Source: Polytrichum commune (taxonomy: Eukaryota > Streptophyta > Polytrichopsida > Polytrichales > Polytrichaceae). Taken from it: a DNA stretch of 64,000 nucleotides. The stretch lies in NCBI GenBank assembly GCA_950295325.1, contig OX485804.1, positions 60,728,533 through 60,792,532 of the forward strand. Direction: 5' to 3'. Positions within the stretch are counted from its first letter, which is position 1. The number at the start of each line of letters is the position of its first letter. A program made the position numbers and the translations under genes. The notes under the pieces were generated by a model, which did no database searches, had not been told where the DNA came from, and was given only the letters and a program-made list of their open reading frames with translations. Of this stretch, positions 1 to 60,660 are shown piece after piece.

Positions 1-66
1 GCTTAGTAAATAAAATCCTAAGAGAATAAGCATCAATTCTTTTATTAAATGAATATTTCAAAATAA
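1..66. other. flank left of the large element
   Basis: AT-rich sequence outside the left CACTA terminus. No gene is visible. The 3 bases next to the terminus are TAA, against TTA on the far side, so there is no clean in-register 3-bp target duplication. Confidence 0.4.
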
Positions 67-92
67 CACTATATTCGTTAAATTGAGACTTT
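67..92 (+). repeat. left TIR of the giant element
   Basis: Begins CACTATATTCGTTAAATTGA and ends GACTTT. It is identical to the reverse complement of 16487-16512. Immediately inside (about 82-108) is an imperfect stem-loop of GAGACT/AGTCTC type, a common subterminal feature of CACTA elements. Confidence 0.75.
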
Positions 93-595
93 CTCTAGTC
101 TCAAATTAATATATGGATCAAACAACATTCCGTGTTCCGAAACTATATTGCGAACAATCTCAAATATATTATATGTTCTAATATCCCAAATCTATTATGT
201 GTGGACATAAGCACATATGGTAGAGCACTCAACACCAACTTCATCAATAAAAACACTTTGGGTAGAGCACTCCAAACTAGTTTCACCCAAAAAACATATA
301 AAATGATTTCTATTATTAGCATGGTCAATAAAATATAGACATTGCAACATACAAAGTACATGCAATAAATGCATTTTTCTTCAATGGAAAATTTAGTCCC
401 AAACTTAATAAAAAAATGAACTTCACAATTGTATTGAAATATAGTAAATGGATATTCATCCAACCCCAAACAATATAGCATTCGCAAGTTCTACCCAAAC
501 TTTGCCCCAAGTTTGAGGAGCACACATATGAGTAATATATATTCGTCGAATTACTGTTTACACTATAATCATGCTAACACAATCCTACCAACTTC
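93..595. other. left subterminal region
   Basis: AT-rich and without a credible gene. It contains two copies of a GTAGAGCACTC motif (221-232 and 263-274) and weak relatives of the element's palindrome arms near 462-515. Positions 76-131 are closely matched at 6847-6905, the left end of the miniature copy. Confidence 0.45.
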
Positions 596-1804
596 TCATT
601 CAACGTGGGTTGCTTCTTCTGCGATCCGAGCAAGGTTGTCTTTTGCAAAAGTTATGTACTTTTGAGGGATGGACACTGATCCACTATGATTTTTCCGTGG
701 TTTCCATGCTATGAATATGGAATCTGTATCTACCCAAGATGGACCGTGCTCAGAATCCACCTTCCACCGAAAGTTAGGGTTTGTATCCCAGCCTGTATAA
801 TGCCGAACAACATCTTCATTCCGTGCTGTCGGTCGGTAGTACTCTACTTGTATTTGTCGAAAATGAGGGCTGGAAGTTACAAAATTTGGTTTGGACAAAG
901 CTCTTGCCACCCACACTGGCTTTGCATATGTCTCATCTCCAGGACGCAAAATGAGCATATAACCTTCATGACAATCCACTGCAATGCGGAAAGATGGTGG
1001 CGGACGACTACTAGCAGGCCCCACGTAATGGTCGTCCACATCAAACTCCTCACGAACCTCTCCATTACTCAAAAGACTAGCCTCCGAAGTTTGTACATTG
1101 ACACGTGTTTGTGGCCAAAACCCATGCCTTAAAGTAAGGGGTGTATCTTGATGAAGGTTTGCCAAAGCGCCACGAACACGTGTCCAATATTGTATCCAAC
1201 TTCCGTAACGAAGCCAACACGATCCACCAACATCCGCTACCCTCAAACTCTCCCAATATTGTATGAAGCCTGATATGCCTTTACAAATGTCCTCCAAATT
1301 CTTCATGGGTATTGGTTTGCAAGGCTTAGGCTCTCCGTCAGGCAACATCGTCCTTCCCTCCCCATCAACACGCCATACAAGGAGACCCTCCGGCGGGCTC
1401 CAGTCTTGTGACGTGCACAACAACTTATATTGCATGGCGGGGACACCATCGTCACGCACGTAGAACCGAAATTGTTGTGCCTTCGTATGTCCGATCAATC
1501 GGTGAGCTCCGCTTCGAATATACGGTTCTATAAATGCCTTGAAGTCTGGAACCTCCTTGATCATATGGGGGATGATGGGAATGTTCTCCAAATCCATGTA
1601 CGACTTCATCAACAATGGGATTGTCGGAAAATCCTCCTCGCGCAACTTCATGCTCCACCGCCCAAAAGATGCATCGATATCGTCGTGCGTGTGGCCTACC
1701 AATAGAAAGGACACAAAAACCTCCTTGAAAATGCCTTTCACAACCAACAATGACCAATATGCAAAAACATATCTACTTTTATTGTCCTTCGCACAATTGT
1801 CCAA

Positions 1805-1807
1805 TTA
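1805..1807 (-). other. in-frame TAA in the DUF7869-type gene
   Basis: On the minus strand the frame reads PPTLRV, TAA, LDNCAKDN without other change. The flanking codons stay in frame, so this is a point nonsense change. CAA to TAA (Gln to stop, C to T) is the simplest origin. Confidence 0.75.
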
Positions 1808-2085
1808 GACACGCAGAGTTGGGGGCAAATTCTTGGCAATCACATCTTCACTTGGTGGCTCCGGCAATGAATGCACGCATACATCTCTTCCATCCAAGAC
1901 CGCTTCATATAGAGGTGTTGATCCCGAGTTTTCAAATAACAATCTTGATGAATAGGACGGCGGTTTCTCCAAATCACGTAAAAGCTTTGCAAATGACCCT
2001 ATCGTGTGGTTTGAATCCGCCGGATACAAATCAAGAGCATAATGAGCATACTTGACATCACCATGTCCATGTGCAATCATCCTTG

Positions 2086-2225
2086 TAAAGCCAACCCAAT
2101 GGTTTAATATTCAACTATAACACCAAAAAATTCACATGGTGTACATCTATGGCCCCAAGTACAAACCTAAAGCACAAATTTGTGTTTAGGTAATGCAATG
2201 CAATTGTTATCGAAATCACCTGTAA
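2086..2225 (-). other. possible intron or frame break
   Basis: Coding identity stops after VSVTG near 2222 and resumes at MIAHGHGDVKYAHY (2080) in another frame. A GTGATT donor and a TTTACAAG acceptor can be seen on the minus strand, but joining them leaves the frame one base out. Either the acceptor has shifted or there is a frameshift. Confidence 0.45.
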
Positions 2226-2634
2226 CCGATACAGGAAGCTTAAAAAGGCCGTCCATGGCTTTTATTCGATTTGCAAAACATGGTGAGGCTGTTTTGGCAT
2301 GGTCCATTTTGTCATGGATGATTGTAAGGACCTCCAAAGGCCTAGAGATGGACAAAGCTCTATTTGTGTAGTAATCATTACGGTGTGCCTCTTGCATATT
2401 CATATGCTTGAAATAGTTCATTTGATGTGCGGCATAGGACTCTGTCCCCATCGTGTGTGCATCTCGAAGGCGTTTCAACTTCTCGCATTTGGAACAACGG
2501 GCAAATTTGTCGCCTCGTCTTTTTGTGATGTATTCGCTAAAGTGAGATTTTTTTATTGCACTCAGTTTCGACAACAAAATAGGGTCCAACCCAGCCTTCT
2601 CGCCAACTGCGTTTACGTCCAACAATATGTCTTT

Positions 2635-2637
2635 CTA
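2635..2637 (-). other. in-frame TAG in the DUF7869-type gene
   Basis: The frame reads LPTGTK, TAG, KDILLDVNAV; both sides belong to the same protein. TGG to TAG (Trp) or CAG to TAG (Gln) would explain it; both are C-to-T type transitions on one strand. Confidence 0.7.
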
Positions 2638-3839
2638 TTTCGTGCCTGTAGGAAGAACCTTCTCCACAACCTTTTTACCGGTTGCGAGTGTGCGTGTTTT
2701 GTGCGGCATTGCATCGGCAAGGGGGACAATGATGGTTGCCAGAGTGGCGGTTGCTTGTCTCGTTGCTTCCCTTGGTTTCTTTAAGCCCGTATTCCCATGG
2801 TGACGGGACCGGCGGCCTTCCTTGGCATACGTGGTTTGTCTATAAAATTCCGCTTTCGACACACCGTGAATGATGTACCATGCGGTACAACACACGTCTA
2901 TGCTCTCAAGGGTGATGACCTTGCGACCCGCTCCGTTCACATGTATCGCCCTATGGACATCAAGCTTTTTGGTGGATCTTAGATGGAAATCTCCAATCCA
3001 CATTTCCTCGCGGATGGCCTTCAATTTATCCCTTGGGAACAATTGGCAACAACGATGTACACAACAATCCTTTGTGGCAACTTCTCTAATGGACTCCTCA
3101 CAAAGCAACATTTGACGTTTACACTCATTTGCAGACGGAGTAGGACGTGCCAATGTATCGTACTTCCGTAGGCCTTTCCGTGGCCGAATGTTTGTTTGGA
3201 GCTCTTCTTGGATTTGGATGTGTCGTCGCTCATGCTCATGCAAATTAACCCCATCAATTGTCACATTCCTCAACGGCCACCTTCGCAACGAGAACCTATG
3301 AGTTGGATTCACTTCGGAATGTACGAGTGATTCCAATATAACAACTCCAACGTCTTCGGTGCCAAGGGGGTTTTCATCAATGCAATCTTGTGGATGTGTG
3401 TTACGACAAATACCCTCCGCCACAGCAACTCCACTGTCATTAACAAGTACTACATCCAAATTCACCCATGAAGCTCGTGAAAGCCCAGCACATTCCACAG
3501 TGGGGCAAGAAGGGGCAGATGGCGAAGGACTCCCCAAGTCACCTTCATCTGCACTGTCATCAAAACTATCCTCCCCAACAATGTCTAGCTCATCCCCAGA
3601 CGTAGATTGGGTGTTGCCCATGTCGTCAGAGAAGAAATCCCCTCTTCCACCAACTCCCTCCATTGCGCCTACACACATGGAAAGAATGTAAGGGTCCAAA
3701 AGAATCAAATATCGGAAAATGCAAGACACCATGATCAATGGGGACACCGAGGATGAAGACATTTCCAACACAACTACAATGTGAATTCCCAACATTGTGT
3801 GCAAGTCCAAAACAAGTTCCAGAAATTATTTTGGTGCGG

Positions 3840-4593
3840 GTTTGGGTCGACCGGCCCAAACCTCATAAAAGTCGGACTGAACCCCTAACACACTGGGGTA
3901 GGGGTTTGGGTCGACCGACCCAAACCTCACAAGGGTGCATCCACCCACACCAGGTAGGGGTTTGGGTCGGTCGACCCAAACCTCACAAGGGTCAGAAAAA
4001 AAAACCCTAACACACTGGGGTAGGGGTTTGGGTCGACCGACCCAAACCTCACAAGGGTACATCCACCCACACCAGGTAGGGGTTTGGGTCGGTCGACCCA
4101 AACTTGATAAGGGTCAGGAAAAAACCCTAACACACTGGGGTAGGGGTTTGGGTCGACCGACCCAAACCTCACAAGGGTGCATCCACCCACACCAGGTAGT
4201 GGTTTGGGTCGGTCGACCCAAACCTAACAAGGGTCAGAAAAAAACCCTAACACACTGGAGTAGGGGTTTGGGTCGACCGACCCAAACCTCACAAGGGTAC
4301 ATCCACCCACACCACGTAGGGGTTTGGGTCGGTCGACCCAAACCTGATAAGGGTCAGGAAAAAACCCTAACACACTGGGGGTAGGGGTTTGGGTCGACCG
4401 ACCCAAACCTCACAAGAATACATCCACCCACACCATGTAGTGGTTTGGGTCGGTCGACCCAAACCTGATAAAGGTCAGGAAAAAAACCCTAAGACACTGG
4501 GGTAGGGGTTTGGGTCGACCGACCCAAACTTCACAAGGGTCAGACATAAACCCTAACACACTAGTGGACAGGTTTGGGTCGGTCGACCCAAAC
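3840..4593. repeat. 13-copy palindrome array, about 120-bp higher-order repeat
   Basis: Thirteen 22-bp sites start at 3840, 3904, 3960, 4026, 4082, 4146, 4202, 4266, 4322, 4387, 4443, 4508 and 4572. Arms are GTTTGGGTCG and CGACCCAAAC with a 2-nt centre. The centre alternates AC and GT, so orientation flips at each site, and spacing alternates about 56 and 64 bp, giving a 120-122-bp unit. Spacers alternate between CATCCACCCACACCAGGTAG and CAGAAAAAACCCTAACACAC types. The array begins 177 bp upstream of the DUF7869-type start codon, so it lies in that gene's promoter region. Open frames across it (RPKP/STQT repeats) are by-products. Confidence 0.92.
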
Positions 4594-5507
4594 CTCATAG
4601 GGTCAGACTCAAAACCCGCCAACACTAGTATAAAGGTGAAGGTTCGCCCAAGTACACCACAAAATCCGGCGTATAATGCGGCGGATATTGCGTGGTGTGT
4701 TGAATTTGAGCTCATTGCAAAGTTCACGGTGGGTTTGCATGGTGTGGATAGGTGCTCATGAACTTGCATGCTATGGATAAGTGCTCATGAACGGCAGCAT
4801 GCACGAACCTTGAAGTACAGCTCCTACTAAGAGTTCTCTCTACGAATTCGACAGCGGGAGAAGAGAAAAAAAGGACCGACTTTTGGGGGGTGCGCCCCTT
4901 TATACTATCCACCTCCGCTTCCCAGACTTAGTCATTGGATGCCTTCCCCGCCTTCTTCTCTTGCAGAGGTTATTTCAAACCTCCTGACAGAATTCCCCGT
5001 TTTCTGTTTATAGTAGAAAAATGCGCATCTATCAATGCCCCTCTGATACCCCAGCCGTCATATGACTTAGTCTATGTTATTTAATCTATTTGTTTTGTTT
5101 TGTGTGGATATGACATACGCCATTGGGAGGAAGGGTGGCGGCCACATTAATTTTTTCAAGTATCATCAAGGTATATTTTAACCAATATGTAGACCCAAAC
5201 ACAACTCCATTCAATGCTTTCAAGTGTAAACCTATTTAGGTGGGGTTTGGGCGATTTGGAGGCTGCAATTATGAGAGAGTTTCCAAGGCTTGAGGCCATT
5301 GTCATAATGAATAGAATTATTTATTTGTCCCCCCTAAACCCTAAACCCTAGAACCTTGCTCTATTATCTCGCATGCAAGAGTGGCAATGACGAACGTATG
5401 TGGACGTTGTTAAGGGGATACTAACTACCAATGTCCCTTTCTAGTTCAATCTTTTAATGTTACTTGAATCCATCCTCAAGTTCACTTCAAGTTTACTAAT
5501 GTGTGAG
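4594..5507. other. non-coding stretch inside the element
   Basis: No gene is recognised. It holds a duplicated CATGAACxxGCATG-type segment at about 4740-4800, purine-rich sequence near 4855-4890, and a short telomere-like CCCTAAACCCTAAACCCTAG tract at 5331-5350. Confidence 0.4.
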
Positions 5508-6325
5508 AGCAAAACATCCAAGATTGGACCCTAAACCCTTATAACATCCACAACATGAAATACGCATTGACTAAATACAAAACCAATTAGGATATCATGT
5601 TTAAACGTCCCATATAACATATTAACATGATCAAGATTGTATTTACTATGACCTTCCGATTAGACTCTTCTTCATATTATGCAAACAATATATGTTATAT
5701 CTTCCTCCATTATCTAATACACGTGGAGAGAACAATGAATAACAACATGATGTTGTGCTTCTCCGATTTACTTTTACATGACATTCCATATATTAAATAC
5801 ATCATGAACGATGGTTTATTAGCGACTAATATGTGATTCCCTAAAGTGAGCGAAACATCCAAAGTTGGACCCCTAGCCCCTATTAACATCCACAATATTT
5901 CATGTTATTTGAATAAACACACGACCAATCAATATATCGCGTTTAAACGTCTCGAATAACAAATTAACATAATCAACATCGTCTTCACTATAACCTTCCT
6001 ATAAGACTCTTCTCACGAGTAAGACAATGTTATACATTGACATTGGATAGATTAATATGTTATAACCCTATCTCCTATCTCCTAAACCCTAAACCCTAAA
6101 CCCTAAACACCAAATGTAGTTGTGGTTCACTGATGCCCCCATATACAAACAACATCTATTTTATCTTGCGCCATCATCTAATATACATGGAAGGAACAGG
6201 GAATAACAACATGATTGCTTGAATGGCTTCATTTGATGTTGTGCTTATCCCATTTACTCTTATATCACAATCTATATATTAAATAAATCATGAACCATGA
6301 TTTATTGGCGACTATGTGATTCGTG
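5508..6325. repeat. degenerate tandem duplication of about 340 bp
   Basis: About 5508-5850 and 5847-6325 align along their length. Shared blocks include AAACATCCA(A)G(A)TTGGACC, TTTAAACGTC, the ATTAACAT.ATCAA block, TAGACTCTTCT and AAATACATCATGAAC/GATGGTTTATT. The second copy carries an extra insert that includes the telomere-like tract at 6081-6109. No coding function is seen. Confidence 0.7.
6081..6109. repeat. interstitial telomere-like CCCTAAA tract
   Basis: About four consecutive CCCTAAA units. TTTAGGG is the telomere repeat of most land plants and many green algae. Too short to be a true telomere; useful only as a lineage hint. Confidence 0.8.
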
Positions 6326-6840
6326 AAAGTCACGATCTAAGGGATGTACTTAAAACTTGAGCATGTTCGCATTTTCAAATAAGGATCGTGCATTTCAAAA
6401 CCCTTGCAAAATGCAGTTGGGGAAGGTATTCATTTATTAGGCTCCACACTCAATTATTCTAAATTGTTCCACATGTTGGGGGGTGTGGGTAATCTTTTTT
6501 TTTTCATTCAATATCGTGTGAATTGTTGGCATCATTGGTAAGGACTAAATGTGAATGGTTACATCGTTAAATATAACGCAATTATATGGTTTAAATTTTC
6601 TAACATGCTCAAACAAAAGAGAAACCAATGCCTTCAATGATTTTGGAAAATTTAGGGTATGGTGTCATGTAAGTAGGGAATAAGTATTAGTTTAGCATAA
6701 AGTTTTGTTGTAAGAATGCGCTGGCTATATAAATGGTTAGTTTTGTAGAATAACACATTTTATGTAGCACCTTAGGGTACTCCATAGTTCTTTTGAAAAA
6801 ACTAATAAGGGTTTAGAGCAGGGTCCAAAAGAACCTAAAC
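6326..6840. other. non-coding stretch
   Basis: AT-rich sequence between the degenerate duplication and the miniature element. No gene, motif site or repeat was recognised. Confidence 0.35.
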
Positions 6841-7093
6841 CCTAAAATTCGCTAATTTGAGATTTTCTCTTCTCTCAAATTAATATATGGACCACAACAA
6901 CATAGTGTAATGTTTGGGTCGTCCTACCTAAACCATCTTCATATGAGATCTTAATTGCGTTCTTGATATGAACACCCGCTTCAAAGTATTTGCATCTTAC
7001 AACATTCTCCAATGTACGTGCGATTTTATCCATTTTCTTATATTTGTAACTTTCTCAAAATGCCGAAAAAATCCCAAATTAACGAATATACCG
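6841..7093. mobile_element. 253-bp miniature with both ends of the giant element
   Basis: The left half (6847-6905, ATTCGCTAATTTGAGATTTT onward) matches 76-131. The right half (about 6950-7093, ACACCCGCTTCAAAGT through AACGAATATA) matches 16385-16509. Its ends are therefore diverged versions of the giant element's TIRs, with almost the whole interior missing and one palindrome-like site at 6912-6933. This is the structure of an internal-deletion, MITE-like derivative, here nested inside a full-length relative. Confidence 0.7.
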
Positions 7094-7740
7094 ATTAAAA
7101 CAAATGCAGCCTACAAAATTAGTGACTTAGCCTATAAAATTTTGAAAGTGTAGGACAAAGAGCCTATGGACAATTTAAAAACATAGGATATCAACCTATG
7201 TGATAAAAACATTTAGGAAATTTTGCCTAAATTTTTTTTAAAAGAAAGGATTTTAGCCATTCATCCTTCTTCAAATTGGGAAATTAGTTGGCCTAAGTAC
7301 ATATCTTTAGGCTATATCTTGCAGGAAGAGTAGAGGTTGAATGAGAACATGGTGAGAACTTTCACCCTTAAACTCATTTGAATTTTAGCAACCTTTCAAA
7401 ACTTATAATCAACTCTTTAAAAAAGACTTGGTTAATCCTTGGCCTTCAAACGTGGTGAAAGGCTTAGCCAGGTTCAATTCCTGCCAAGGATCCCACTTAG
7501 TACTCAAATTTTGATTTTAAAACCTACAACATTAAAAGATATGAAGGATTTTAACCTACTAAAATTTAGTTTTGAGGCAATTGGCGAGGAACTTACAAAC
7601 TCAAAAGGTTTTCAACTTACAAAAAGTTGATATTGTAGAATGCAACCTATGCTATGAGGCAAATAGCCTATGTACTCTTAAAGAGGTAGGCCCGCTAAGG
7701 GTTTAGAGTCAAGCGTTATGATTTAGGTTTTAGGGTTCCC
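7094..7740. other. non-coding stretch upstream of the ParB-like gene
   Basis: AT-rich with repeated short blocks (CCTATGNAAAAA..., TTTTAGCC). A tRNA-like 3' half with a B-box match GGTTCAATTCC occurs at 7471-7481 but no full cloverleaf was found. No gene was recognised. Confidence 0.35.
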
Positions 7741-7938
7741 TGTAACCCTGTTTCCGTGGGTGCCCTAATCCTGTGGGCACCCTATTCATGCGGTTGGGGG
7801 CCAATGCCCGAGGTAAACAAAACCCCAACCGTCGCATTTCTCATTTCTTTCTCTCTCTCTCTCTCCGCGCCTCGCTTGGAAGCGCCGCCTCTCCTGAAGC
7901 GCCGCTTTCGCAAAGCGCCGCGGCGAATCAGGCTTGGT
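7741..7938 (+). promoter_or_regulatory. putative promoter and non-coding first exon
   Basis: A sharp rise in GC content, a short inverted repeat GGGTGCCC/GGGCACCC (about 7758-7782), a CT-rich leader (TTTCTCTCTCTCTCTCTC, about 7850-7868) and then G|GTAAGT at 7939. This looks like a plant core promoter and 5' UTR exon ending at a good splice donor. The matching acceptor is directly before the ATG at 9226. Inferred from composition and splice signals only. Confidence 0.45.
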
Positions 7939-8224
7939 GTAAGTTAACCCTTCATTCTCCCGCGTTCATTGCTTTCTTCTGCATCTTCTTTTCCCTCCTT
8001 TCTTTTGCTCTTCAATAGAATAGCCCTTGTGCAATCTTAGAAGTTAGGAAGAGTTTTGAAAGAAACAGAAACATACGGAGGAAGGTTTTAGAGCATGAGA
8101 GTGAAGGAAGTTAGCAAAAGAGTGTTGAAGAGTATTGGAAAGTGCTGAAGGAAGTTAGTAGAACATTCGGTAGTAGATAAAGCTTCAATTTGGGAGGTCC
8201 AGGTGTTTGTACTGGAAGTTTTAG

Positions 8225-8530
8225 GAGTGCTTGTGAAATTCAAGAGTTCTTTAAGAGTATCAAGAGTTGTTTGAGAGTTTTCGAAGTCGTTTGAGAGATT
8301 CAGTAGTTTTGTGAGGGATTCAGGAGTGGGTTTAGACATTTCGAAGTCTTTTGAGAGGTTTAGTAGTTGTGTGTGAGATTCAGGAGTTGGTTTGGACATT
8401 TCGAAGGCTTTTGAGAGGTTTAGTAGTTGTGTGTGAGATTCAGGAGTTGGTTTAGACATTTCGAAGTCTTTTGAGAGATTCAGTAGTTCTGTGTGAGATT
8501 CAGGAGTTGGTTGAGAGATCCAAGAGCTAT
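8225..8530. repeat. 60-bp tandem repeat
   Basis: Successive units starting near 8279, 8339, 8399 and 8459 share TTTCGAAGTCTTTTGAGAG and GATTCAGGAGTTGGTTT, with a more diverged unit on each side. An open minus-strand frame across it (MSKPTPESHTQLLNLSK repeats) follows from the 60-bp period and is probably not a gene. Confidence 0.85.
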
Positions 8531-8771
8531 TTGAGAGAGTTGATACTTGTTTGAAAGTTTCTCATTGAACTTTCTCACAGTTTGTTTGATATTGAGAATT
8601 ATTGGAAGAACAACCTGCTCTACTCCAAATTGTCTGCACAACATCTTTGAAAGGTATTGTGTTTTATTTTAACCAATATGTGTTTGTATATTCACGGTTT
8701 TGTAGCATACACAATGCATAAGCATTGTATATGCTAGATGCCAAGTTTTAAAAATACATTAAAATAATACT

Positions 8772-9199
8772 ATTTGGGGAGACGACCCAAACACAGCCTT
8801 TTGTATGGGTCGACTGACCCAAACACAGCCTCTTGTTTGGGTCGACCGACCCAAACACAGCCCCAAACACAGCCCCTTGTTTGGGTCGCTCGACCCAAAC
8901 ACAAAACAAAGCATCATGTTTGGGTCGAACGATCCAAACTAAATCTTCTAATTATAAACTCATAAAGAAATCCATGATTTTTGCATCAATATAAAATTCA
9001 CATCAACCCAAAATAATAATCAAGGAATGTATCAAGGAAAAGTATCAAAGAATCCTGCATGTCACAAACAATATAAAATGAAAATCCACCCAATAATCAC
9101 AACATTCTTATTATCATTACAAATGATGCTGAAATATATAAATACACAATCCACCTAAACCTATTCATGTCGTAGATGTTTGGGTCGAACGACCGAAAC
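8772..9199. repeat. palindrome cluster upstream of the ParB-like gene
   Basis: Six copies or variants of the element's 22-bp palindrome start at 8772, 8803, 8835, 8879, 8918 and 9178. The copy at 8835 is intact; the others differ by one to several bases (centre CT, AA or CTG variants). The last lies only 27 bp before the start codon at 9226. Confidence 0.85.
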
Positions 9200-9225
9200 T
9201 AACTTTGCAGATTATTTTCTTACAG

Positions 9226-10551
9226 ATGGCTCCAAAGAAAAGACCCGGCGAAAGGTGGTTCATGCCTGCGCCGGACATGTTGTGGCAGGAGCACGAAACC
9301 CCGCATGATGGCTCCTATTCCCCTAAGGACGGGCTTGTCCTCGCTTGGTCTATTCAAGTAGTCAAAGCCTCAACATACAAAATGATTTTTGTTGTCAAGG
9401 TGGGAACCGTGGAGAAACACACCTGGGCGACTCTTACGGGATGGGAGGTCGCATCGGTACAGTCTCTTGGAGACTATACCGACGTCATCCTCGAGAACTC
9501 GGCTGTGCAGAACGCGCATATGTTCATGCACCAGTTCTCCAAGCCTTTCGACGCACTCTATGCAAGAGAGTCCTGTGTCGAACCAGAAGTTATCAAGCCG
9601 GAGACAATATTTATCGATGGGGGTACATCGAATACCAAGGTCTCAAGCCGGTTCACAAAACTAAAACATGCAATAACCGTGCTGAACAGGGGCCTGCAAA
9701 GCAAAACCAAATCACAGCAACCTGTGAGGCGGAAAGCTCCCACAGAGGAAGGAGCAGGGTCGTCAAGACCTCAATCGGTGAGGATGCCGCTACCAGTACC
9801 GGCTGACTCGCGTAGGACCACTCCCTCCCAAACACCTACGAATAGTGAGACCCCTACACCTTCTGGGAGCCGTCAAACAACTCCATCCAAGAGGGCGAGA
9901 GAGTCATCTGTGATGACTGACGAGCCAGTCTCACCGGAGTTGCGCATGCCGAAGCCCGGCGAAGAGGTGGATGCAGGGGAGCTGCAGAAAATCATGAACA
10001 ATTTCACGACGAAATGCTCCCACTGTTTTTTCATGGGCAGGGATTTCAAGTTCGACGTGAACATCAGCCAGTGCCATCTAGCGCCACCGGAGAAGTGTGT
10101 CCGGGCAAAGGAGGACGCCTACGTTGACTGGATAATCGCGTAGATCGTTTGCGAGCAGTTTAAAAACGACAGGCAAACGATTGTAGTGATGCCACAGGGT
10201 CTCAAGAAAATGCCTACACCTGAAATGTGGCCAACAATTCAGAAGGGCGATTTTTGGTTGATAGACGGCCAACACAGCGTGGAGGCATCCAAGAAAATCC
10301 AACTCATGAATGAGTGGGACGATCCCAACAATCAGAAGGAAAAGCTGAAGGTTTGGAAGGCACTGGTGGTGTGGTCTGACGACGAGACCAAGCTCAGCGA
10401 CATCTCCCGGTACTTCAATATGGGAAACAAGAAGAGGGCCTACCAAGCTTCCTGGATAAGGAATATCATGGCCTCGCGGGAGGTGTGGGAGTTCTATGGT
10501 AGGCCTCCCAAGGAGAGGGAGAATGCGAAGGACAAGAATCCCAAGTGGGAG
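9226..10551 (+). CDS. exon 1: N-terminal region and ParB-like domain
   Basis: Opens MAPKKRPGERWFMPAPDMLW. A Ser/Thr/Pro-rich linker (TPSQTPTNSETPTPSGSR) separates an unknown domain from the ParB-like domain. The ParB-like part runs from FDVNISQCHLAPPEKC through AYVDWIIA, an in-frame TAG (10141-10143), IVCEQFKNDRQTIVVMPQ, to GDFWLIDGQHSVEASKK and DISRYFNMGNKKRAYQ. This matches the ParB/Srx pattern of a proposal helix followed by a DG-H-x-x-A loop. Ends WE|GTGAGT. Confidence 0.6.
10141..10143 (+). other. in-frame TAG within the ParB-like domain
   Basis: The frame reads VDWIIA, TAG, IVCEQFKND; both sides are the same domain with no shift. CAG to TAG is the simplest origin. Confidence 0.75.
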
Positions 10552-10771
10552 GTGAGTATTGTTTGGGTCGACCGACCCAAACTCCTGGTGCAGTCTTGTG
10601 TTTTTTTTAGTTTGGGTCGATCGACCCAAACAACTGTTGCAGTCTTGTGTTTTTTTTCAGTTTGGGTCGATCGACCCAAACTCTTGTTGTAGATGTTGGT
10701 CATGATATGGTTTGGAAATCACATGTACTTAACTAACACGCATTCAAATGTTTTGTTTTGTTCACGTGCAG
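10552..10771 (+). other. intron 1, carrying three palindrome sites
   Basis: GTGAGT donor and TTCACGTGCAG acceptor, phase 0. Sites begin at 10561, 10610 and 10660. The last two have centre AT, making each 22-mer a perfect self-complementary palindrome. Confidence 0.75.
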
Positions 10772-12103
10772 GATTTCAAATACCAAATGATCAACAAATT
10801 CTCCTCTATTGATAATTCGAGCCACAAGCAGAAGAAATACAGCGACCTCAAGGGGGAGATTTACTTGATTACAGCATCGGACTCAGTTTGGAGGAAGTGG
10901 AAAACCGTGTTTGAAAAGCACGAGACGGGGGATTTGATCGACCCCGACACTGGCATTTTCTTCAGCCAAACCTCGCGCTTCAAGCAGATGAAGCCTCTCG
11001 TGAGAGAGTTCTTTAGAACTCTTCAAGGGCTGTCAGAGACGGAGGTGGAGAAGGCGGCATCGCACATCCTGCACGTGGCACCCACGGCCAAGAGGTGTTG
11101 GGTGCATCCGAAGATTGTCTTCGTAAAGCCCAAATCCTTCGTTCCTTCATGCTACACCATGAAGGAATGGACGGAGAACAGGAAAAAGAAGACGATTATC
11201 GTGCAGGAGCTGCATAAATTGGTGCCAGAGAGGAATATTGTCGTGGACGGCGAGGTTCATGGGGCTAACTGGAGAGCATTCAAAGATGAATATAAGTTCA
11301 CCAGTGCCTCCATGGCGGCTCTAATAAGGGAAGCGGGGGACGACTTCTTGCGGGCCAAGATGGTGAAGGGTGGGAAGAACCGGGCGCTTCCGGATCACAC
11401 AGCACGTGCGTTCTCGAACTTCATCAAGGAGAAGAAGATTGTCCAGTTTGAAGGGGACGCTTACTTCAACCTTGTCACCTTCGAGACTTTGAAAATTCAG
11501 GGCTGGCCAGGTCAAGACGCCAGAATGGCGATAAGGACGAAAGCAAGGGACCGCTTTCCTTTTGGGATGATTGATTTTAGAAATATTCCTGGAAGCTCAT
11601 TTGAGGGCACGATGAGCACCCTCTTCTACGACCCCTTCTTAATTAAGTTCGTCGATTATGCAAGCCCTAAGTTCAGGGAGGTAGATATCTGGCTTTGGAT
11701 AGTCGAGGATAGAAGGGCGGAGCAGGTGTACGAGCTTGTCCGAAAACTGCAGCCGGAGTATGCAGTGTCCAAGTCTCACTACATCGCCGCACCGGCGGAG
11801 GGGGCTTACACGACGTTGAAGGACAAGAAGACCAAGTTTGTCAACGTCTTGTGTTTGTACTTCATGTACAAAGCGGAGTTGCTGAAGGTGCCAAACCACC
11901 CTATATCCCGGATGGACAAACTCTTCCAAGTTCCAGAAGGGTTGGGTGCGAACAAGTGCCTCTACGACGAGGCTAAATACGCGAACTATCCTGCAGATGA
12001 GCTGCGGATGGAATTTTACATGAGAATGATGAGGACGCTGACGAGGAGAGGGGACTGCATCTTCAACGTCTTCGGAGGCTCAAAACCTGTCTATGCTGCT
12101 ATG
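10772..12103 (+). CDS. exon 2: methyltransferase-like core
   Basis: Open throughout (DFKYQMINKFSSID...). A basic region (ENRKKKTIIVQELHKL) precedes SPKFREVDIWLWIVEDRR, where amino-methyltransferases carry the catalytic (D/N/S)PP(Y/F/W) motif; here that tetrapeptide is absent. Near the end, RRGDCIFNVFGGSKPVYAAM resembles the AdoMet-binding motif I of permuted enzymes. Possibly a catalytically altered or non-enzymatic derivative. Confidence 0.55.
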
Positions 12104-12263
12104 GTAAGTGACTTTCTATAGCTCGTAAGCAGTTTGGGTCGATTGACCCAAACTAGGCTCTTTGCAGGTTTGGGTCGACCGACCCAAACTACACATTTCA
12201 CTTAGTCTTGTTTATGTGACTGCCTCGACAAATTCTAATTTCCCTATAACTTGGATTGTGTAG
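12104..12263 (+). other. intron 2, carrying two palindrome sites
   Basis: Donor ATG|GTAAGT, acceptor TTGTGTAG|ATG, phase 0. Sites begin at 12132 (centre variant ATTG) and 12168 (intact). Confidence 0.75.
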
Positions 12264-13751
12264 ATGTCGGGGCTGAATATATACTCCTACATAGAGGATG
12301 GCGATCTGCCATTTTATAGGGTGCAGAAATCGCTGGCGAAGAAGATGGACATCCTCGATTGGATCCCGGGTAGCTACGTCGACGAGGTTGTTCAGGGTGG
12401 CGAAAACCCTCTTGATAGGGTGAGGCGCATCAACCCGGAGGAAATGGCCATGAGGGCCACGACCCAAGTTCCCGAACCTCTGGTCGGGTTGCATCCGGGC
12501 AATCCGTCCCGCACAGAAGGTGGCGAGGTTGAGGAGGAGGAGGAGGAAGAAGAGGAACACGAGGAGGCGGAGAAGGAAGGCGACGTCGAGGAAGGGGCAA
12601 CGGGCTTCACGCAACAATCCGAAGCCCCTCAACGGAAGAAGGCGATGCGGGCGGCAACCCCGCAGAGTAAGCTCGTGCCCGTCCTGACTGTGGACGATGC
12701 ACGGGACATGTACTCCAGGGACGCCACCGCGACGTTCAGGGAGAGGAGGAAGTTATAGGGGAAGAAGCTGTATGGCGACTACTCCGTGGAGGAGACCATT
12801 GCCATAAGCAGCGAGGACGACGATGACATTGAGCTCGCCAAACGGCTAAGATCAAATCCCCCGTCCCCGACAGCGTTCTCTGGCATGGTTAGGGTGAAGC
12901 CCGAGGTCCTGACTGTGGAGGAGGCGAACGAGAAGATGAGGAGGGACGAGGAGCAGCGAGTCCGCTTGCAGAAGGCTGCCGCGGAAGAACCCTCAATGCG
13001 GAACGAGGTCGCAGAGCTGAGGGCTCTCCTGTTGGAGCAGGAGCGTCAAAGGGCGATGGCCCAACCTCCGTCCCACGCCGACTTGATATCACAAGTGATA
13101 CAAGGAATGTGGGCGCAAGGTTTGGTGGTGGCTCCCTCCAGCTCCTTCCCGCACTTGCCCCCCGGCTTCCCTCCGCAGAGCATCCCTCAGCAGCTTGTGC
13201 CGCAATCGTCTTTCAGCTTCCAGCACTTGATGCGGCCCCACCAAGTTCCGTACGCGCCGGTCCAGCAAGTGGATGACCCCAACATCTGGTGCGTCTTTGG
13301 AGCCTCCTCCCCTTTGGGCCCTCCACCACTTCGGCCCCCCATAGTCATGGCGCCACCCCACCAATCGGACGACCCCAGGATGTTTGGGTCGACCGACCCA
13401 AACCCACCATCCATTGTAGTGTCCGAAGGGCCCTCTCCAGATGCAGGACAGTTTGGGTCGGGCGACCCAAACCCCGTTGCAGCGCAGTCCTCCCTTGACC
13501 AACATGGGTGTCAACTAGACACGGCCATGCTAGATGTTGAAGGCCTGCAAGGGCCTGGTGATACCTCTACTCCTAACCAAATCGATGAACCCATGCATGA
13601 TGCACATGCGGAGATTGGTTTAGGACAAGGGCCTGATGCCGATCGTTTGCAGGAGAAGGTTCCTGACGTCGTCGGAGAAGGCGGTGGCGAGAGAGGCGGG
13701 GCAGCGGGGACGGTGGAGGCTTCCACATCGTCGAGACATGACCAGGGCGAG
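12264..13751 (+). CDS. exon 3: end of methyltransferase-like fold, acidic and Pro-rich linker
   Basis: MSGLNIYSYIEDGDLPFYRV continues the motif-I strand-helix unit of exon 2. Then follow an acidic run (EEEEEEEEEHEEAEKEGDVE), an in-frame TAG at 12756-12758, a short coiled-coil-like stretch (MRRDEEQRVRLQKAAAEE) and a long Pro/Gln-rich disordered region. Two copies of the palindrome (13382-13403, 13451-13472) lie in the reading frame and encode FGSTDPNP and FGSGDPNP. Ends GAG|GTAATA in phase 0; without splicing it would stop at TGA 13761. Confidence 0.5.
12756..12758 (+). other. in-frame TAG in exon 3
   Basis: The frame reads RERRKL, TAG, GKKLYGDYSVEETIAISSED and stays open for 330 further codons. 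Fourth in-frame TAA/TAG in the element's genes. Confidence 0.65.
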
Positions 13752-14237
13752 GTAATACACTGAGCCTTCCCAGTTTGGGTCGACCGACCCAAACTTCCTG
13801 GGTCACTGTCTTGTTGGCGTGGTCGTGTCCCCCTTGCTAGGAGGAAATGCACACCCCCTGCCCCCCTGGTCTACACTTGCTCCCCCTCCCCCCAACGTGC
13901 CCCCCCGCGATCCCCTTCGTCTCACCTGCATTCGACTACGCTCGACCTTGGCGGCGCGCAACCAATTTTGTAGATGTAGAATTAGGATAGTGTGAATGCC
14001 CTCGTTCACCGCCCCCCCCCCCCCAAATCAAATTGTACATAGAGATTTGTAAAAATAAAATTATTATTTTTGGCGCCCATATGTTAGCATCCGTGTCCCA
14101 ATGTATGTTGTTCCCTTGTATGTTTTTGTTGCCACCAATGGTCCAATTCTTCTTGTGTTTGCACAAAATTTCCATTCTGCTTGAGATGGACATAGCATAA
14201 CATAGTCCTCGCCGCCTTCTCTCGCTCGTCGCCGCAG
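13752..14237 (+). other. intron 3, C-rich, with one palindrome site
   Basis: Runs from GTAATA to GTCGCCGCAG. It contains an intact palindrome at 13773-13794, pyrimidine-rich tracts (13850-13925) and a run of about 14 C residues near 14011-14024. Both ends are phase 0. Confidence 0.5.
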
Positions 14238-15050
14238 GGTTTGGAGCATAGCGTCGCAGCTCCCCACCGATCCTCTCCGAGGAGTGTGGAGGACAGCGCG
14301 GTGGTCCCCCCGATTTTGCCCTCGCCACCTTCGCCTCCCAAGACCCGGTTCCTGGTGCTAGACCTCAACGGGGTCCTTGTCCAGTGCGTGCATTGTCCGA
14401 GGGTCCCAACGGTGCCTTTCTGCAAGCCCGAGGACGCCAACTACGATGGACCCCCCGCGTACATCAAAAGCAAGCTAGTGTACCTCCGCCCGTGGCTTCG
14501 GCGCTTCCTACAGGTCGCCCTATCCAAATGGTGGGTGATCATTTGGAGCTCCATGAAGTCCGAGAATACCCAGGCCGTCGTGGAGTTCATCTTCAAGGGA
14601 CTCCAACCCCCGTGCTTGGTCCTAGGACAGGATTCTTGTAAAACATTGTACACCCCCGAGGGCAGGGTTGTGAAGAAGCCCAACAACCCCGCCGTAAACC
14701 AATTTCTTAAGGTCTTGAAGCCAGTCGTATGGGACCAGCGTCCGACCATGGTCGGCTGTCCCTACGACGTTCGCCCCACCCGTGACAACACGTTGATGGT
14801 GGACGACAGCGCTTCCAAAAACATTTTGAACCCGACCTCCAACTTCATCGTTTGCCCCACGTGGACAGTCGAGAAGGTCCGAGACCGCTTTTTATTAGAC
14901 CTACTTAAGTACATTCAAACGCTCGTGGGGAGCGGACTACCCGTGCCCCGGTTCCTTAGTTGTAATCCGATAGGTGAAAGATACATGGATCCGAAGGACT
15001 ATATGTACAGAGAGTTGTACGCTTACGCGAAATATAATAAACTCATTTGA
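14238..15050 (+). CDS. exon 4: FCP1/NIF-type HAD phosphatase-like domain
   Basis: FLVLDLNGVLV (motif I, D1424, with Asn in place of the usual second Asp), VIIWSSMKSENTQ (motif II, Ser 1486-1487), and TLMVDDSASKNILNP (motif IV, DD 1571-1572). The order and about 200-residue length fit the NLI-interacting-factor/FCP1-like HAD family, whose members dephosphorylate phospho-Ser/Thr proteins such as the RNA polymerase II tail. The substituted second Asp may weaken activity; DLNG forms also exist in plant relatives as I recall. It follows exon 3 in phase 0, so it is probably the C-terminal module of the same protein, but it could be a separate gene. Confidence 0.68.
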   Translation, partial: GLEHSVAAPHRSSPRSVEDSAVVPPILPSPPSPPKTRFLVLDLNGVLVQCVHCPRVPTVPFCKPEDANYDGPPAYIKSKLVYLRPWLRRFLQVALSKWWVIIWSSMKSENTQAVVEFIFKGLQPPCLVLGQDSCKTLYTPEGRVVKKPNNPAVNQFLKVLKPVVWDQRPTMVGCPYDVRPTRDNTLMVDDSASKNILNPTSNFIVCPTWTVEKVRDRFLLDLLKYIQTLVGSGLPVPRFLSCNPIGERYMDPKDYMYRELYAYAKYNKLI

Positions 15051-15169
15051 GATACTACATGGTGTGCCATTGTGTGTGATATAGTATGCCTCAATTGTAT
15101 ATCGATTTTCTCATGCTCCCCCCCTGCCCCCCTCCCCTTGGGTTTTGTTTGTTTTAATTTTGCCATCAG

Positions 15170-15523
15170 CGTTTGGAGCCCTCGATTGAGATCGTCAGCG
15201 AATCAAACTTGGGGAGCTTCTTCTACGAGACCGTCTACGATGCCACGTCCACCATCGACTACTCCAAGGAGCCTCTTGACGCCGGCGTCGTCGATAGCCC
15301 CCCACCCAAGCAAATCTTCCGGCGATCTCCGTCCCCGTCGCCGCTCAAGGGCATAAATCGCAAATGCGTCCGGACGTCCCCCTCTCGGCCCGGCGGCAGT
15401 AGTACACCTCAACGGCGGCTGCGGATGGACGCTCGGCCTACGAAGAGTGGCACCCTTCCTATTCCTTTGCGGGACGCATTGCCCCTCCTCGCCGACTCCG
15501 ACGGGAACGCCCCTAGTGACAAG
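15170..15523 (+). CDS. exon 5: Ser/Pro-rich exon, alternative tail or separate gene
   Basis: Acceptor TTTTGCCATCAG|CG, then RLEPSIEIVSESNLGSFFYE and a Pro/Arg-rich stretch, ending DK|GTGAAC. It starts in phase 0, like exon 4, and the two share GTTTGGAGC at their starts. Exon 3 could therefore splice to either. Exon 4 itself ends in TGA with no good donor before it. Confidence 0.42.
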
Positions 15524-15655
15524 GTGAACCCCCCCCCCCCCAAAACATGGTTAACCGCGCATTACAATCATCCGGCACTTAAAAAATGAACGTGTGACAC
15601 GTTTGGGTCTTCCTCCCTAAACTAACACGTGTGTTCTTGCATTCACGCGTTGCAG

Positions 15656-15973
15656 GTTGCTCCCACCCGTAGACCTATGCGGGCTAGTGCGTCCGTCGAG
15701 TTGGAGCGTTTCTACTCCATGACCAGAAATGCAAGACAGTCCACTTCATCGTATTCGAATTCTTCGTCGTATAATTCGGGCGGCCGACGGAATCCAAAAT
15801 GTGTTATTGATGGCGGTCACCCCAAGAATGGCTATAGTCGCAGGGCGGAGATTTTCAGGAATGTTGAAGCAATGCGAGCAAAAGAAGCCGCAGCAAAAGA
15901 AAAAGAGGCAAAAGAAAAAGAGGCAAAAGAAAAAAAAGCAAAAGAAAAAGAGGTAGTCTCCGAGGCTAGATAG
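15656..15973 (+). CDS. exon 6: Lys/Glu-rich C-terminal exon
   Basis: Acceptor CGCGTTGCAG|GTT, phase 0, then VAPTRRPMRASASVELERFY, an Asn/Ser/Arg-rich stretch and an AKEKEAKEKE repeat run ending EVVSEAR-TAG. The upstream intron carries a palindrome variant at 15601-15622. Function unknown; a basic, charged tail could bind nucleic acid. Confidence 0.42.
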   Translation, partial: VAPTRRPMRASASVELERFYSMTRNARQSTSSYSNSSSYNSGGRRNPKCVIDGGHPKNGYSRRAEIFRNVEAMRAKEAAAKEKEAKEKEAKEKKAKEKEVVSEAR

Positions 15974-16486
15974 GCCATAGTAGGCGTAGGGTTTTGGGCC
16001 ATAGGCAAGAACATTTTGGGTCGCACTATCCAATGGATGTGTTGTGTTAGCATGCTATGCATTTTACATGCCACACTTTGTATGTTTTTTTTTTGCAATA
16101 ATATAAGTGTCACATGATTTCCCCTTCCATATGGTCTAAGGTTTGGATTGCCCTACCTAAACCATCACAAATATGAGTTTGGAATATTTTGTATGTTATA
16201 TTATATTGGTTCACATATTTCCCCTTCAATATGATCTATGGTTTGGATTGCCCTACCTAAACCATATTCATACAAGTTTTTGTGCGATAATATGAATGTT
16301 TTAAGATTTCCCCTTCAACTTGGCCTAAGGTTTGGATTGCCCACCCTAAACAATCCCAAATATTGAGTTATTAACGGGGTTCTTGTTCTAAACACCCGCT
16401 TCAAAGTGTTCGCATCTTACAACTTTCTCCAATATGTGTTCCATTTATCCTTGTTCTTATTTCTGTGAATGTCTCAAAATGCCCAA
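15974..16486. other. right subterminal region with decayed palindromes
   Basis: Three variants of the motif (GTTTGGATTGCCC(T/A)(A/C)CCTAAAC type) start at 16141, 16241 and 16330, spaced about 90-100 bp with partly repeated spacers (CCCCTTCAAT, ATATGA). From about 16380 the sequence matches the right half of the miniature at 6841-7093. Confidence 0.65.
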
Positions 16487-16512
16487 AAAGTCTCAATTTA
16501 ACGAATATAGTG
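16487..16512 (-). repeat. right TIR of the giant element
   Basis: Perfect 26-bp inverted copy of 67-92, ending ATATAGTG. Confidence 0.75.
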
Positions 16513-17014
16513 TTAAATTAACTAAACTAAACTTAATTCATAATTAATTCATAAGAATACAAATTTAGGATATTCCAAGAATCTGAAGTAATTACGTGCC
16601 AAAACGATTAAACATATGGAGTAAACAACGTTGACTATCAAAAATATCTTTTAACTTAGTTTATTTACCTTAATAATATAATATTCATTTTTCCAATTGT
16701 CTTTTGATACTACTAGATTAAAAATGGCTTATATATTTAGATTAAAAAAATCAACAATAGCTAAGTCCTTGGAAAAACAATTCAATTCAAGTGAAATGTG
16801 GAGAAGTAAAAGTCAACGTAAATACCCGTCCCCCCTACATGAATCAACCCAACTTAAGAGATGTCAAATTTTTATTGAAAATTCATTTATTCTCCGATTT
16901 TGGTTCTCTTCTCGGTCTCAACCCTGTGAAGATCAAAACTCCATCATTTTTAGTTTTTTTTTCTTCAACTCCAACCGTTTCCAACCTCAACCAATTCCAC
17001 CCTTGATTGAAAGT
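16513..17014. other. flank right of the large element
   Basis: AT-rich, no recognised gene. No further copy of the palindrome motif was seen from here to the end of the window. Confidence 0.4.
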
Positions 17015-20146: not shown

Positions 20147-21209
20147 CCTCAACACTAGTATTGCATAGTATTAATGTCGAGGTGCCTCCCTAGCCACCTA
20201 GACTGACAATCATATCCTAAAAATCAAGTCCCTTTACTAAAAGCCACAGTGCAAGCTCTATGTTCATTTGAGAGGTGACCTTTCATGATACAAAGCCCAA
20301 GTTCTTGAAGCCAAGATTTTATGCATCCAAACACAGATAAAACCTCATACATTGACATTCCAAATGAAGAGCAAGAAGTCAAACAACAAGCCTTGACACT
20401 AGTACTACACAACACTAGTGTCAGGGTGCCCCCCTAGCCGCTTAGACTTGCAGCCATATCCTAGAATTCAAGGCCCTTCACCACAATTCGAAGTGTATGT
20501 CAATGGGTTTTAGCTAACCCCAAATTAGTCTAGTGAGCTTACATTGGGGTGAATCAACAACTAAATCAAAAGGAATTAATTTTTACTTTTGTTCACACAA
20601 AACATTCTTCCCCCATTCTTCAACCTAATTCCACTTTTCAACTTGCATCCCAACTACAAATGCCCTCCAACAATAGCAATGGAAAATTAAATGAATGAAG
20701 GCTTTGCAACCACCTTGACACTAGTACTGCACAATACTAGTGTTGAGGTCCCGATTTTGGAAGACAGTCAGAAGCCCAAATTAAGAATAGAAAGGGCAAT
20801 ATGCAGTCTACCCAAGCTTAAGAAACAACTATTTACATCCATTTTATTGGATGAAGGATGAAAAATAAGGACAAACGTCAATTTGAATCAAAGGAGCCTA
20901 CACTTGAAACATTGACCTCAACACTAGTATTGTGCAGTACTAGTGTTGAGGTTCCACTCTCATCCCCACCTCTGGTAGCCATATTAATGACTTGAATGTC
21001 CTCTACCTCTTGATTGAGGAAAATCTACCACTGAGAGGCAGCCTTCCACAGGCAAGCAAACATAAGATCTCATGCAAGCAAAAGAAAACAATCCTCCCCA
21101 ATAGTAGCCAAGGGGGCAAATAGACACAAATTATTGCAAAAATAATGACTTTGACACTAATACTGCAGAGTACTAGTGTCAAGGTCACTGATTTCTAGTG
21201 TTGAGGTCC
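20147..21209. repeat. five periodic hairpins (ACACTAGTA family)
   Basis: Inverted repeats centre near 20165, 20409, 20730, 20933 and 21166. The best, 20916-20951, has perfect 14-bp arms CCTCAACACTAGTA and TACTAGTGTTGAGG with an 8-nt loop. Others use CCTTGACACTAGTA arms. A half copy follows at 21196-21209. Spacers share blocks (CTCCAACAATAGCAA, AAATTAAAT), so hairpin and spacer were amplified together with a period of about 200-320 bp. Confidence 0.88.
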
Positions 21210-21249
21210 TCTAAAATGAGCAGTAATGTTATGGAGTCATGAACTTCAA

Positions 21250-21725
21250 CTGGTTATTTCTCAAACTCATCCGGTTCATTTGTGATGGTTAATTCTTTGA
21301 AGTCTCAAACCTCGATCACTTATTTCTCAAACTCACCCAGATCATTTGAAACTAGTAATATTCCTGAAATCTCAAACCTCAACCAGTTATTTCTCAAACT
21401 CACCCAGATCATTTGAAACTAGTAATATTCCTGAAATCTCAAACCTCAACCAGTTATTTCTCAAACTCACCCAGATCGTTTGTAACTAGTAATATTCCTG
21501 AAGTCTCAAACTTCAATTAGTTATTTCTCAAACTCACCCAAATCATCTATAACTAGTAATTTTCCAGGAGTCTCAAACCTCAACCAGTTATTTCTCAAAC
21601 TCACCCAGATCATTTGTAACTAGTAATATTCCTGAAGTCTCAAACTTCAATTAGTTATTTCTCAAACTCACCCAAATCATCTATAACTAGTAATTTTCCT
21701 AAATCCTAAACCTCAATCAGTTGCA
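21250..21725. repeat. 67-bp tandem array, about seven copies
   Basis: Units mark their start with (C/T)AGTTATTTCTCAAACTCAC at 21384, 21451, 21518, 21585, 21652 and 21718, with diverged units at about 21250 and 21317. Two subtypes alternate (ACCTCAACCAG and ACTTCAATTAG), suggesting a later 134-bp duplication. The array abuts the MULE-like pseudogene. Confidence 0.9.
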
Positions 21726-59943: not shown

Positions 59944-60660
59944 TGTTCGAAATAGGGGTTTCGGAACCGAAATCCCTATTTCAAACATTTCTTTTAAAAA
60001 AATACTTATCATTCACCAATTTTATGTTTATTATTTTGAATGAAATGTTTGGATTAAGGGTTTCGGTACCAAAACCCTTGTTCTAAACTTTTCTTTTAAA
60101 AAGAACACTTTCATAAAATATTTAAAAATTTATTGAATATTTAAAATATTTAAAAAGAACACTTTCATGAAATATTGAAAGTATTTATTTCTTTCAAGAA
60201 ATATGCATGAAAGAAATTGAGGACATTGGTTGTAGTGTTAAAATAAATTGGTGAAGGACAAAAACGTCTTTTTGAAAAAAAGTTGTGGAAAAGGAGTTTT
60301 GGTACCAAAATTCCTATTCCACAATTTTCTTTCAAGAATGAACATGAAAAAAAAATGAGGACACTGGCTATGGCGTCAACATGAAATTATTGAATGAGAA
60401 GTATGTTGTTTGAAGGAAAATTGTGTATTAGGAGTTTCGGTACCGAAACCCCTATTCCACACTTTTCCTTCAATAATAAACATGGAAAAAAAATGAGGAC
60501 ACTGGCTATGACATCAATATGAAATTATTTATTGAGACGTATATTGTTTGAAAAAAAGTTGTAGAATAGTGGTTTCGGTACCGTAACTCCTATTCCACAA
60601 ATTTTTTTCAAGAAACAAGCATACAAGAATATCATGATAACAACTATGACATCGACATAA
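59944..60660. repeat. five long hairpins centred on GGTACC
   Basis: Palindromes of 45-65 bp centre near 59965, 60067, 60303, 60441 and 60579. The clearest (60411-60472) pairs GTGTATTAGGAGTTTCGG with CCGAAACCCCTATTCCAC around TA, flanked by GAAGGAAAA/TTTTCCTTC. The last three are spaced exactly 138 bp with shared spacers (GAGGACACTGGCTATG). Compensating variation (GGTTTCGG/CCGAAACC versus AGTTTTGG/CCAAAATT) keeps the arms complementary. Confidence 0.88.

Follow-up and report, generated by a model that had tools for sequence, protein, structure and literature searches.

A 22-bp palindrome shared by two unrelated moss transposons as the candidate recognition site of their ParB-like, methyltransferase-like proteins

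We describe a transposon of about 16.4 kb in the moss Polytrichum commune that carries many copies of a 22-bp palindrome, GTTTGGGTCG-NN-CGACCCAAAC, around and within a gene for a ParB-like protein with a methyltransferase-like part. The element occupies positions 64..16515 of a 64,000-nucleotide stretch (assembly GCA_950295325.1, contig OX485804.1, 60,728,533 to 60,792,532; hereafter the window, whose numbering we use) and ends on both sides in inverted repeats of 29 bp that match perfectly (64–92 and 16487–16515). Judged from sequence, the palindrome is probably the recognition site of the element's own ParB-like protein, a candidate parS-like self-address. This interpretation draws on the sites themselves, the constraint on them, their conserved positions, the shifts in site type along the protein tree, and the presence of both site and ParB-like gene in two transposons—stronger support than was available to the initial annotation of this DNA, which had proposed a self-recognition system from the window alone.

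A scan of all 64,000 bases recovered 21 exact copies, rising to 25, 27, 30, and 33 when up to one, two, four, and five mismatches were allowed in the 20 arm bases; 200 windows generated under a first-order Markov model held on average 0, 0.04, and 0.155 copies at up to two, four, and five mismatches. The earlier count of about 33 copies therefore holds at the loosest threshold, weak copies included, and not for strict sites. All 27 copies with at most two mismatches fall within 3840–13794, inside the transposon. Five right-end copies (15601, 16014, 16141, 16241, and 16330; 15601..16351) have four to five mismatches each and an imperfect dyad, and one additional weak copy, with five mismatches, lies near the left end at 256, outside the range of 3840..16351 first proposed, which does enclose every strict copy. 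Subterminal sites at the right end thus exist as described, albeit in degenerate form, with strict sites being internal (array, 5′ regions, introns, and exon 3). From 16513 to 64000 we found no copies at up to five mismatches, as the initial annotation had stated, and one at up to six (45297; chance expectation 1.25 per window). The centre dinucleotides of the 27 copies are mostly those already reported (AC 13, GT 6, AT 3), joined by AA (2), TC, CT, and GG (one each).

Of these 27 sites, thirteen form an array upstream of the DUF7869 gene (3840..4593), spaced by about 60 bp and mostly alternating between AC and GT centres, and one (6912) lies within an internal copy of both element ends that resembles a miniature inverted-repeat transposable element (MITE; 6847..7090, matched to both ends by blastn). 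Five precede the ParB-like gene: four (8803, 8835, 8879, and 8918) share 8783..8939 with a half-site at 8783, and the fifth (9178..9199) directly precedes the start codon, with protein-level signatures (defined below) at the matching place in relative P0011 and degenerate ones in P0013 and P0010. The rest are inside the gene, according to a model whose exon boundaries are our own reading of the splice sites—three in intron 1 (10561, 10610, and 10660; 10561..10681), two in intron 2 (12132, with one mismatch, and 12168; 12132..12189), two in exon 3 (13382..13472, translated as FGSxDPN), and one (13773..13794) in intron 3, which is deduced from a domain fusion in relatives; alternatively, this last site falls right behind the frame's stop at 13761. 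The statement that most introns carry sites is accordingly true of the ParB-like gene and not of the DUF7869 gene. Given such positions, another conceivable role of the palindromes is to form hairpins in intronic and 5′ RNA, as splicing aids, small-RNA traps, or decoys: the sites at 10561, 12132, and 13773 lie 9, 28, and 21 nt after the modelled 5′ splice sites, and the arms could pair in a transcript. However, the innermost G..C pair, which would have to enclose a loop of two nucleotides, is conserved like the remaining arm, the array sits in a 5′ intergenic region, and two sites are exonic, and we regard a role in RNA as very improbable.

We then consider the palindrome across the genome (407.8 Mb in 64 contigs), where it occurs in 9,231 exact copies, compared with none for a letter-reversed control and none for the symmetric variant GTTTGGGCCG-NN-CGGCCCAAAC. 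The palindrome was said to be confined to the element, which is correct within the window; the possibility that it is private to this element family is ruled out by the genome count and by its sites in a second transposon. We inspected eight site-bearing regions besides the window, six from the first 2.2 Mb of contig C1, chosen from listed sites, and two (L025 and L026) chosen by other flank types. All eight are transposons, as a tie between palindrome and element would predict, with the qualification that three are not the window element: five are its copies (including L025 and L026) and three belong to an element resembling Mutator-like elements (MULEs). We counted 101 exact sites in the six C1 regions, of which 77 belong to the three that are copies of the window element and 24 to the other three, and the ParB-like gene is present in seven of the eight regions. 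Five regions not picked for sites (50 kb) contained none at up to three mismatches.

Copies of the window element keep the sites in corresponding places. Upstream of the DUF7869 gene there are 13, 17, 13, and 21 palindromes in the four copies covering that part; intron 1 has three or four sites (five copies), intron 2 two or three (one in the partial copy L026), and intron 3 one (five copies), and exon 3 has two in six of six copies. Exons 1 and 2 have none in the copies compared. The array unit and the intron flanks vary by subfamily (the copy at 612k, for example, has 78-bp units), with the site itself constant. As a separate observation, the array units also contain AACCCTAA (3897–4560), which we take to resemble the plant telobox.

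Several comparisons indicate that the site is under constraint. Within AC- and GT-centred groups, the arms of the 13 array copies differ from the majority at 1 of 260 bases, versus 69 of 442 in the 17-base flanks, both array edges included. In exon 3, the window and the copy at C1:612-632k agree in each of the 12 site codons, compared with 189 of 315 codons for identical residues outside the sites (one-sided p 0.0026), and the same comparison with L026 gives 12 of 12 versus 59 of 83 (p 0.023); because site codons are frozen relative to other codons of identical residues, the constraint acts on nucleotides. Across 174 sites with at most one mismatch in nine regions (the window element among them), no site has a pyrimidine-purine step at the centre of its dyad, although these sites come from related copies and are not 174 independent events. 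Within the genome, none of 12 two-change sites was mirrored in the opposite arm; paired changes appear between lineages only. These data also bear on whether the palindromes are a passive by-product, functionless seeds of tandem duplication, as the tandem units of about 32, 49, 60, and 78 bp around them might suggest. To this we give almost no credence, given arms kept over flanks, frozen codons, intron positions shared by divergent copies, and the absence of the symmetric variant above (type III below).

The three C1 regions with the remaining 24 exact sites carry an unrelated element, with a probable transposase on the minus strand; we call it MULE-like from inspecting it and from a weak match to SWIM (E 0.076, below cut-off). 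The protein of its divergent gene contains WDGNHRF, by inspection a ParB/sulfiredoxin-type DGxHR motif, and after it a stretch that matches an N6/N4 methylase (PF01555; E 7e-4, short of the curated cut-off). Region 2150-2170k has both genes; 460-480k has the ParB-like exon together with a faint trace of the transposase, and 432-442k (10 kb examined) yielded the transposase alone. Here the palindromes form a 32-bp-spaced array 5′ of the ParB-like gene, with further sites between the transposase frames. The coding feature that we found in both elements is a DGxH protein that is ParB-like and includes a methyltransferase-like part. Alignment with hhalign found no convincing homology between the elements for either the ParB-like or the methyltransferase-like parts, the DGxH stretch alone aligning among the former (E 0.14), so that the proteins are either distant homologues or have converged on one site. 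No exact inverted 16-mer marking terminal repeats of the MULE-like element was found in 20 kb, with the left end sought within the first 6 kb. This element also has a second palindrome, CCCTGTGCGTTAACGCACAGGG (L017:7660-8850, L009, and L010), and exact GTGCGTTAACGCAC cores number eight and six in two of its three regions and zero in six DUF7869 regions.

Relatives of the ParB-like protein in other genomes provide further evidence. From pooled databases we recovered 80, many of them translated through into introns, in which the palindrome's three reading frames leave the signatures VWVxRPK, FGSxDPN, and LGRxTQT. Counted with close variants, these number 43 in tails totalling 1,782 residues, spread over 27 of 43 segments, versus 0.003 in shuffles; in 38,668 core residues there is one, which is P0003's exon-3 site. 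Freeing positions 5 and 8 gives 48 sites in 28 of the 80 proteins against 0.07 expected. The 83 DUF7869-family proteins have no signatures, and neither do the three distant relatives with exon-2 tails (P0059, P0061, and P0066).

Some relatives carry altered sites, typed from protein letters that reveal only some positions of each arm. Variant II (GTTTCGGTCG) occurs in P0005 and P0007, although one site in each departs in part from that type; variant III (GTTTGGGCCG) in P0004, with both arms changed at both sites, and in P0047, where only the left arm is readable; and variant IV (GTTTCGGGCG) in P0006, P0010, and P0040. P0010 and P0040 (exons 1 and 2, both type IV) may be one contig, since the longest contig given for either has 5,065 bases. 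In an exon-2 tree, with 22 of 47 rows typed and P0010 absent for want of that exon, the rows of types II, III, and IV are each set apart by a single branch (support 100/99, 94/91, and 100/100), and site type requires three changes, the minimum, a value not reached in any of 200 label shuffles. This agreement counts for less than it might, and to that extent weighs against our interpretation, because site and gene are linked on one element and linkage explains part of it. Arm changes that come in pairs, and introns that agree with each other as in P0010 and P0040, are more independent evidence.

These shifts are also pertinent to the alternative that a host DNA-binding protein reads the palindrome, the two transposons having independently gained a site that draws in an activator, insulator, or replication factor of the host. 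Such a reading would account for one palindrome in two unrelated elements, the ParB parts of which can barely be aligned, and for the one site-bearing region without a ParB-like gene in the 10 kb examined. Against it, changes to both arms by clade are not easily allowed by a fixed host factor, even if relatives with altered sites may live in other hosts with factors of their own, and every inspected site-bearing region is a transposon. Overall, we judge recognition by a host factor to be quite unlikely.

The protein expected to bind the site, in our interpretation, is composite. ParB and Noc proteins are the best structure matches for residues 261–613 of a relative's model, supporting a ParB-type fold for the product of the second gene, as the initial annotation had suggested in calling it a ParB-domain gene. 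With regard to the central helix-turn-helix by which canonical ParB reads parS, alignments reaching residue 613 have root-mean-square deviations of about 8–14 Å. Canonical ParB proteins have a CTP-binding GERRxxA (ERR) motif, the place of which is occupied here by DGQHSVxA. For exon 2, the structure matches listed are methyltransferases only, and residues 225–444 are modelled as an N6-adenine DNA methyltransferase fold. An intact catalytic motif IV of such enzymes reads DPPY/W; the presumed position in this family reads DFR..P, for which reason we call the protein methyltransferase-like rather than an active enzyme and consider catalytic DNA methylation by the family improbable. Sequence searches of the PDB gave no useful match, pattern scans of viral_contigs and genome_contigs for related loci gave zero matches, and an exon-2 profile matched 76 stretches of genome_contigs and 49 of viral_contigs, without confirmation for any of these.

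Bacterial ParB–parS systems have a palindromic site near the protein's own gene, an arrangement that the moss element resembles in its predicted ParB-type fold and in its palindromes, and from which it differs in having DGQHS for ERR, dozens of sites per element, and methyltransferase-like and NIF-like parts. The initial annotation drew its parallels from CACTA elements and from ParB proteins that bind parS. The methyltransferase-like part and the NIF fusion instead identify the nearest known class as ParB-like plus DNA-methyltransferase transposon accessory proteins, rather than plasmid ParB or the CACTA protein TNPA; the idea of ParB self-recognition fares better, since the palindromes accompany ParB-like genes in two unrelated transposons, with the amendment that the protein is also methyltransferase-like.

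Proteins of this class are already in print. In Ectocarpus, Sola1-1_Ec32 encodes a protein with ParB-like and N6A/N4C methyltransferase parts opposite its transposase, and self-binding and self-marking have been suggested for such algal proteins, according to the available passages of PMC12477816. The moss DNA transposon likewise encodes a large protein of this composition opposite its transposase; it differs from Sola1-1_Ec32 in its host, its DUF7869 transposase (MULE-like in the second element), its NIF-like part, and its atypical motif IV. The passages of PMC12477816 name no DNA site, whereas the moss elements have a candidate one, which is new relative to that source. With sharply defined limits, naturally occurring variants among related proteins, and copies in the thousands, this candidate allows binding and its consequences to be tested directly.

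How the system might operate can be outlined by analogy. We infer binding, dimerisation, spreading, and anti-silencing: the ParB-like protein would bind the dyad as a dimer, loading at dozens of sites in the transposase-gene array, its own 5′ region, its introns, and one exon. Once loaded, it could shield promoters and introns of the element from host silencing so that they stay open, mark element DNA, or both, and it may also assist synapsis for transposition. An anti-silencing or chromatin function seems to us possible, though with the balance tilted somewhat against it. A precedent is found in the VANDAL transposons of Arabidopsis, where, according to PMC5735166 and PMC10398659, VANC proteins target short motifs, often in tandem, that recur in introns, between genes, and in noncoding sequence at the ends; from one subfamily to another, the motif changes along with the protein, and VANC binding removes silent marks. 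The moss motif is similar in clustering in introns and in 5′ and intergenic regions, in its tandem arrays, and in drifting by subfamily. In contrast to the VANC21 motif YAGTATTAY, which has nine bases and is arrayed in one orientation in the consulted part of PMC5735166, the moss site is a 22-bp palindrome, and its system is known from sequence alone. More speculative, and in our view unlikely, is a scheme in which the ParB–methyltransferase-like proteins of both elements load on one palindrome and protect or mark both families, forming a chromatin identity code exchanged between superfamilies and drifting by paired arm changes in each lineage. One palindrome in two unrelated transposons is a strong handle on how transposon self is told from host.

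A narrower function would be that of TNPA, with the protein bridging the element's ends and controlling its own promoter, and no chromatin role. TNPA of Spm/En recognises subterminal repeats (PMC2613891, in part), and the moss element has three weak right-end sites (16141, 16241, and 16330) and another site in the MITE-like derivative. It further shares with En/Spm its CACTA-like ends and a repeated motif to which a DNA-binding protein of the element is proposed to bind; unlike En/Spm, its strict sites are internal, it lacks a clean 3-bp duplication, and its probable transposase is DUF7869. The intact sites are internal or intronic with intron positions kept across copies, and the copies at the ends are degenerate, such that we consider a purely TNPA-like role rather unlikely.

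The remaining features of the element are those of a decayed copy with two genes. Its CACTA-like ends read CACTATATTCG at 67 and the complement at 16502–16512, and the flanking TAA (64–66) and TTA (16513–16515) form no clean 3-bp target-site duplication in the one copy read. The gene order of the window element is repeated in three further copies, one of which spans both ends within the retrieved stretch, and in all four the two genes lie on opposite strands. The DUF7869 gene, on the minus strand, is probably the transposase gene and comprises a C-terminal part (596..2110; PF25273, E 4.6e-31 on 596–1804) and an N-terminal part (2167..3690), each with one in-frame stop; no Pfam match to Tnp2 or Transposase_21 above cut-off was found in these pieces, where DUF7869 is the sole match. 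Its 83 relatives include two named from Physcomitrium patens. The ParB-like gene, on the plus strand, comprises exon 1 (9226..10551; one in-frame stop, with the ParB-fold part and DGQHS in its second half), exon 2 (10772..12103), and exon 3 (12264..13751; one in-frame stop, covered by relative P0003). A NIF/FCP1 phosphatase-like part on the same strand (14196..15050; PF03031, E 1.1e-13) is assigned to this gene because PF03031 lies within the same protein in four Ceratodon purpureus relatives (P0017, P0018, P0019, and P0021; about 26% identical).

An alternative genetic code, with TAA and TAG read as Q, was considered because each of the four in-frame stops is TAA or TAG, and was ruled out: one corresponds to W in 33 of 33 relatives, which excludes TAG as Q and indicates that the window copy has decayed. 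At the other three, relatives have Q (18 of 18); Q (5), K (3), or A (1); and K (1 of 1). The DUF7869 frames (596–3690) use CAA 23 times and CAG not at all, and CAG and CTG stand at about 0.4 of expectation there, compared with about 0.8–1.1 in the ParB-like exons; CTG in the NIF part is at 0.21. This shortage possibly reflects decay through CHG methylation. The phosphatase family of the NIF part usually reads DLDE, in place of which 14196–15050 and the Ceratodon relatives alike have DLNG. The four Ceratodon proteins have locus tags with UG and VG and lie on contigs of 110–112 Mb, probably the U and V sex chromosomes.

Other palindromes occur outside the element. A family of 37–40 bp (ACCTCAACACTAGTATTG...; 20147–21190) adjoins a 67-bp tandem array (21242–21722) near MULE-like transposase fragments at 21.7–24.2 kb. 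At 59949–60600, GTTTCGGTACCGAAAC-like palindromes, four found by script and a fifth by eye, are set within longer imperfect inverted repeats, and their half-site resembles variant II.

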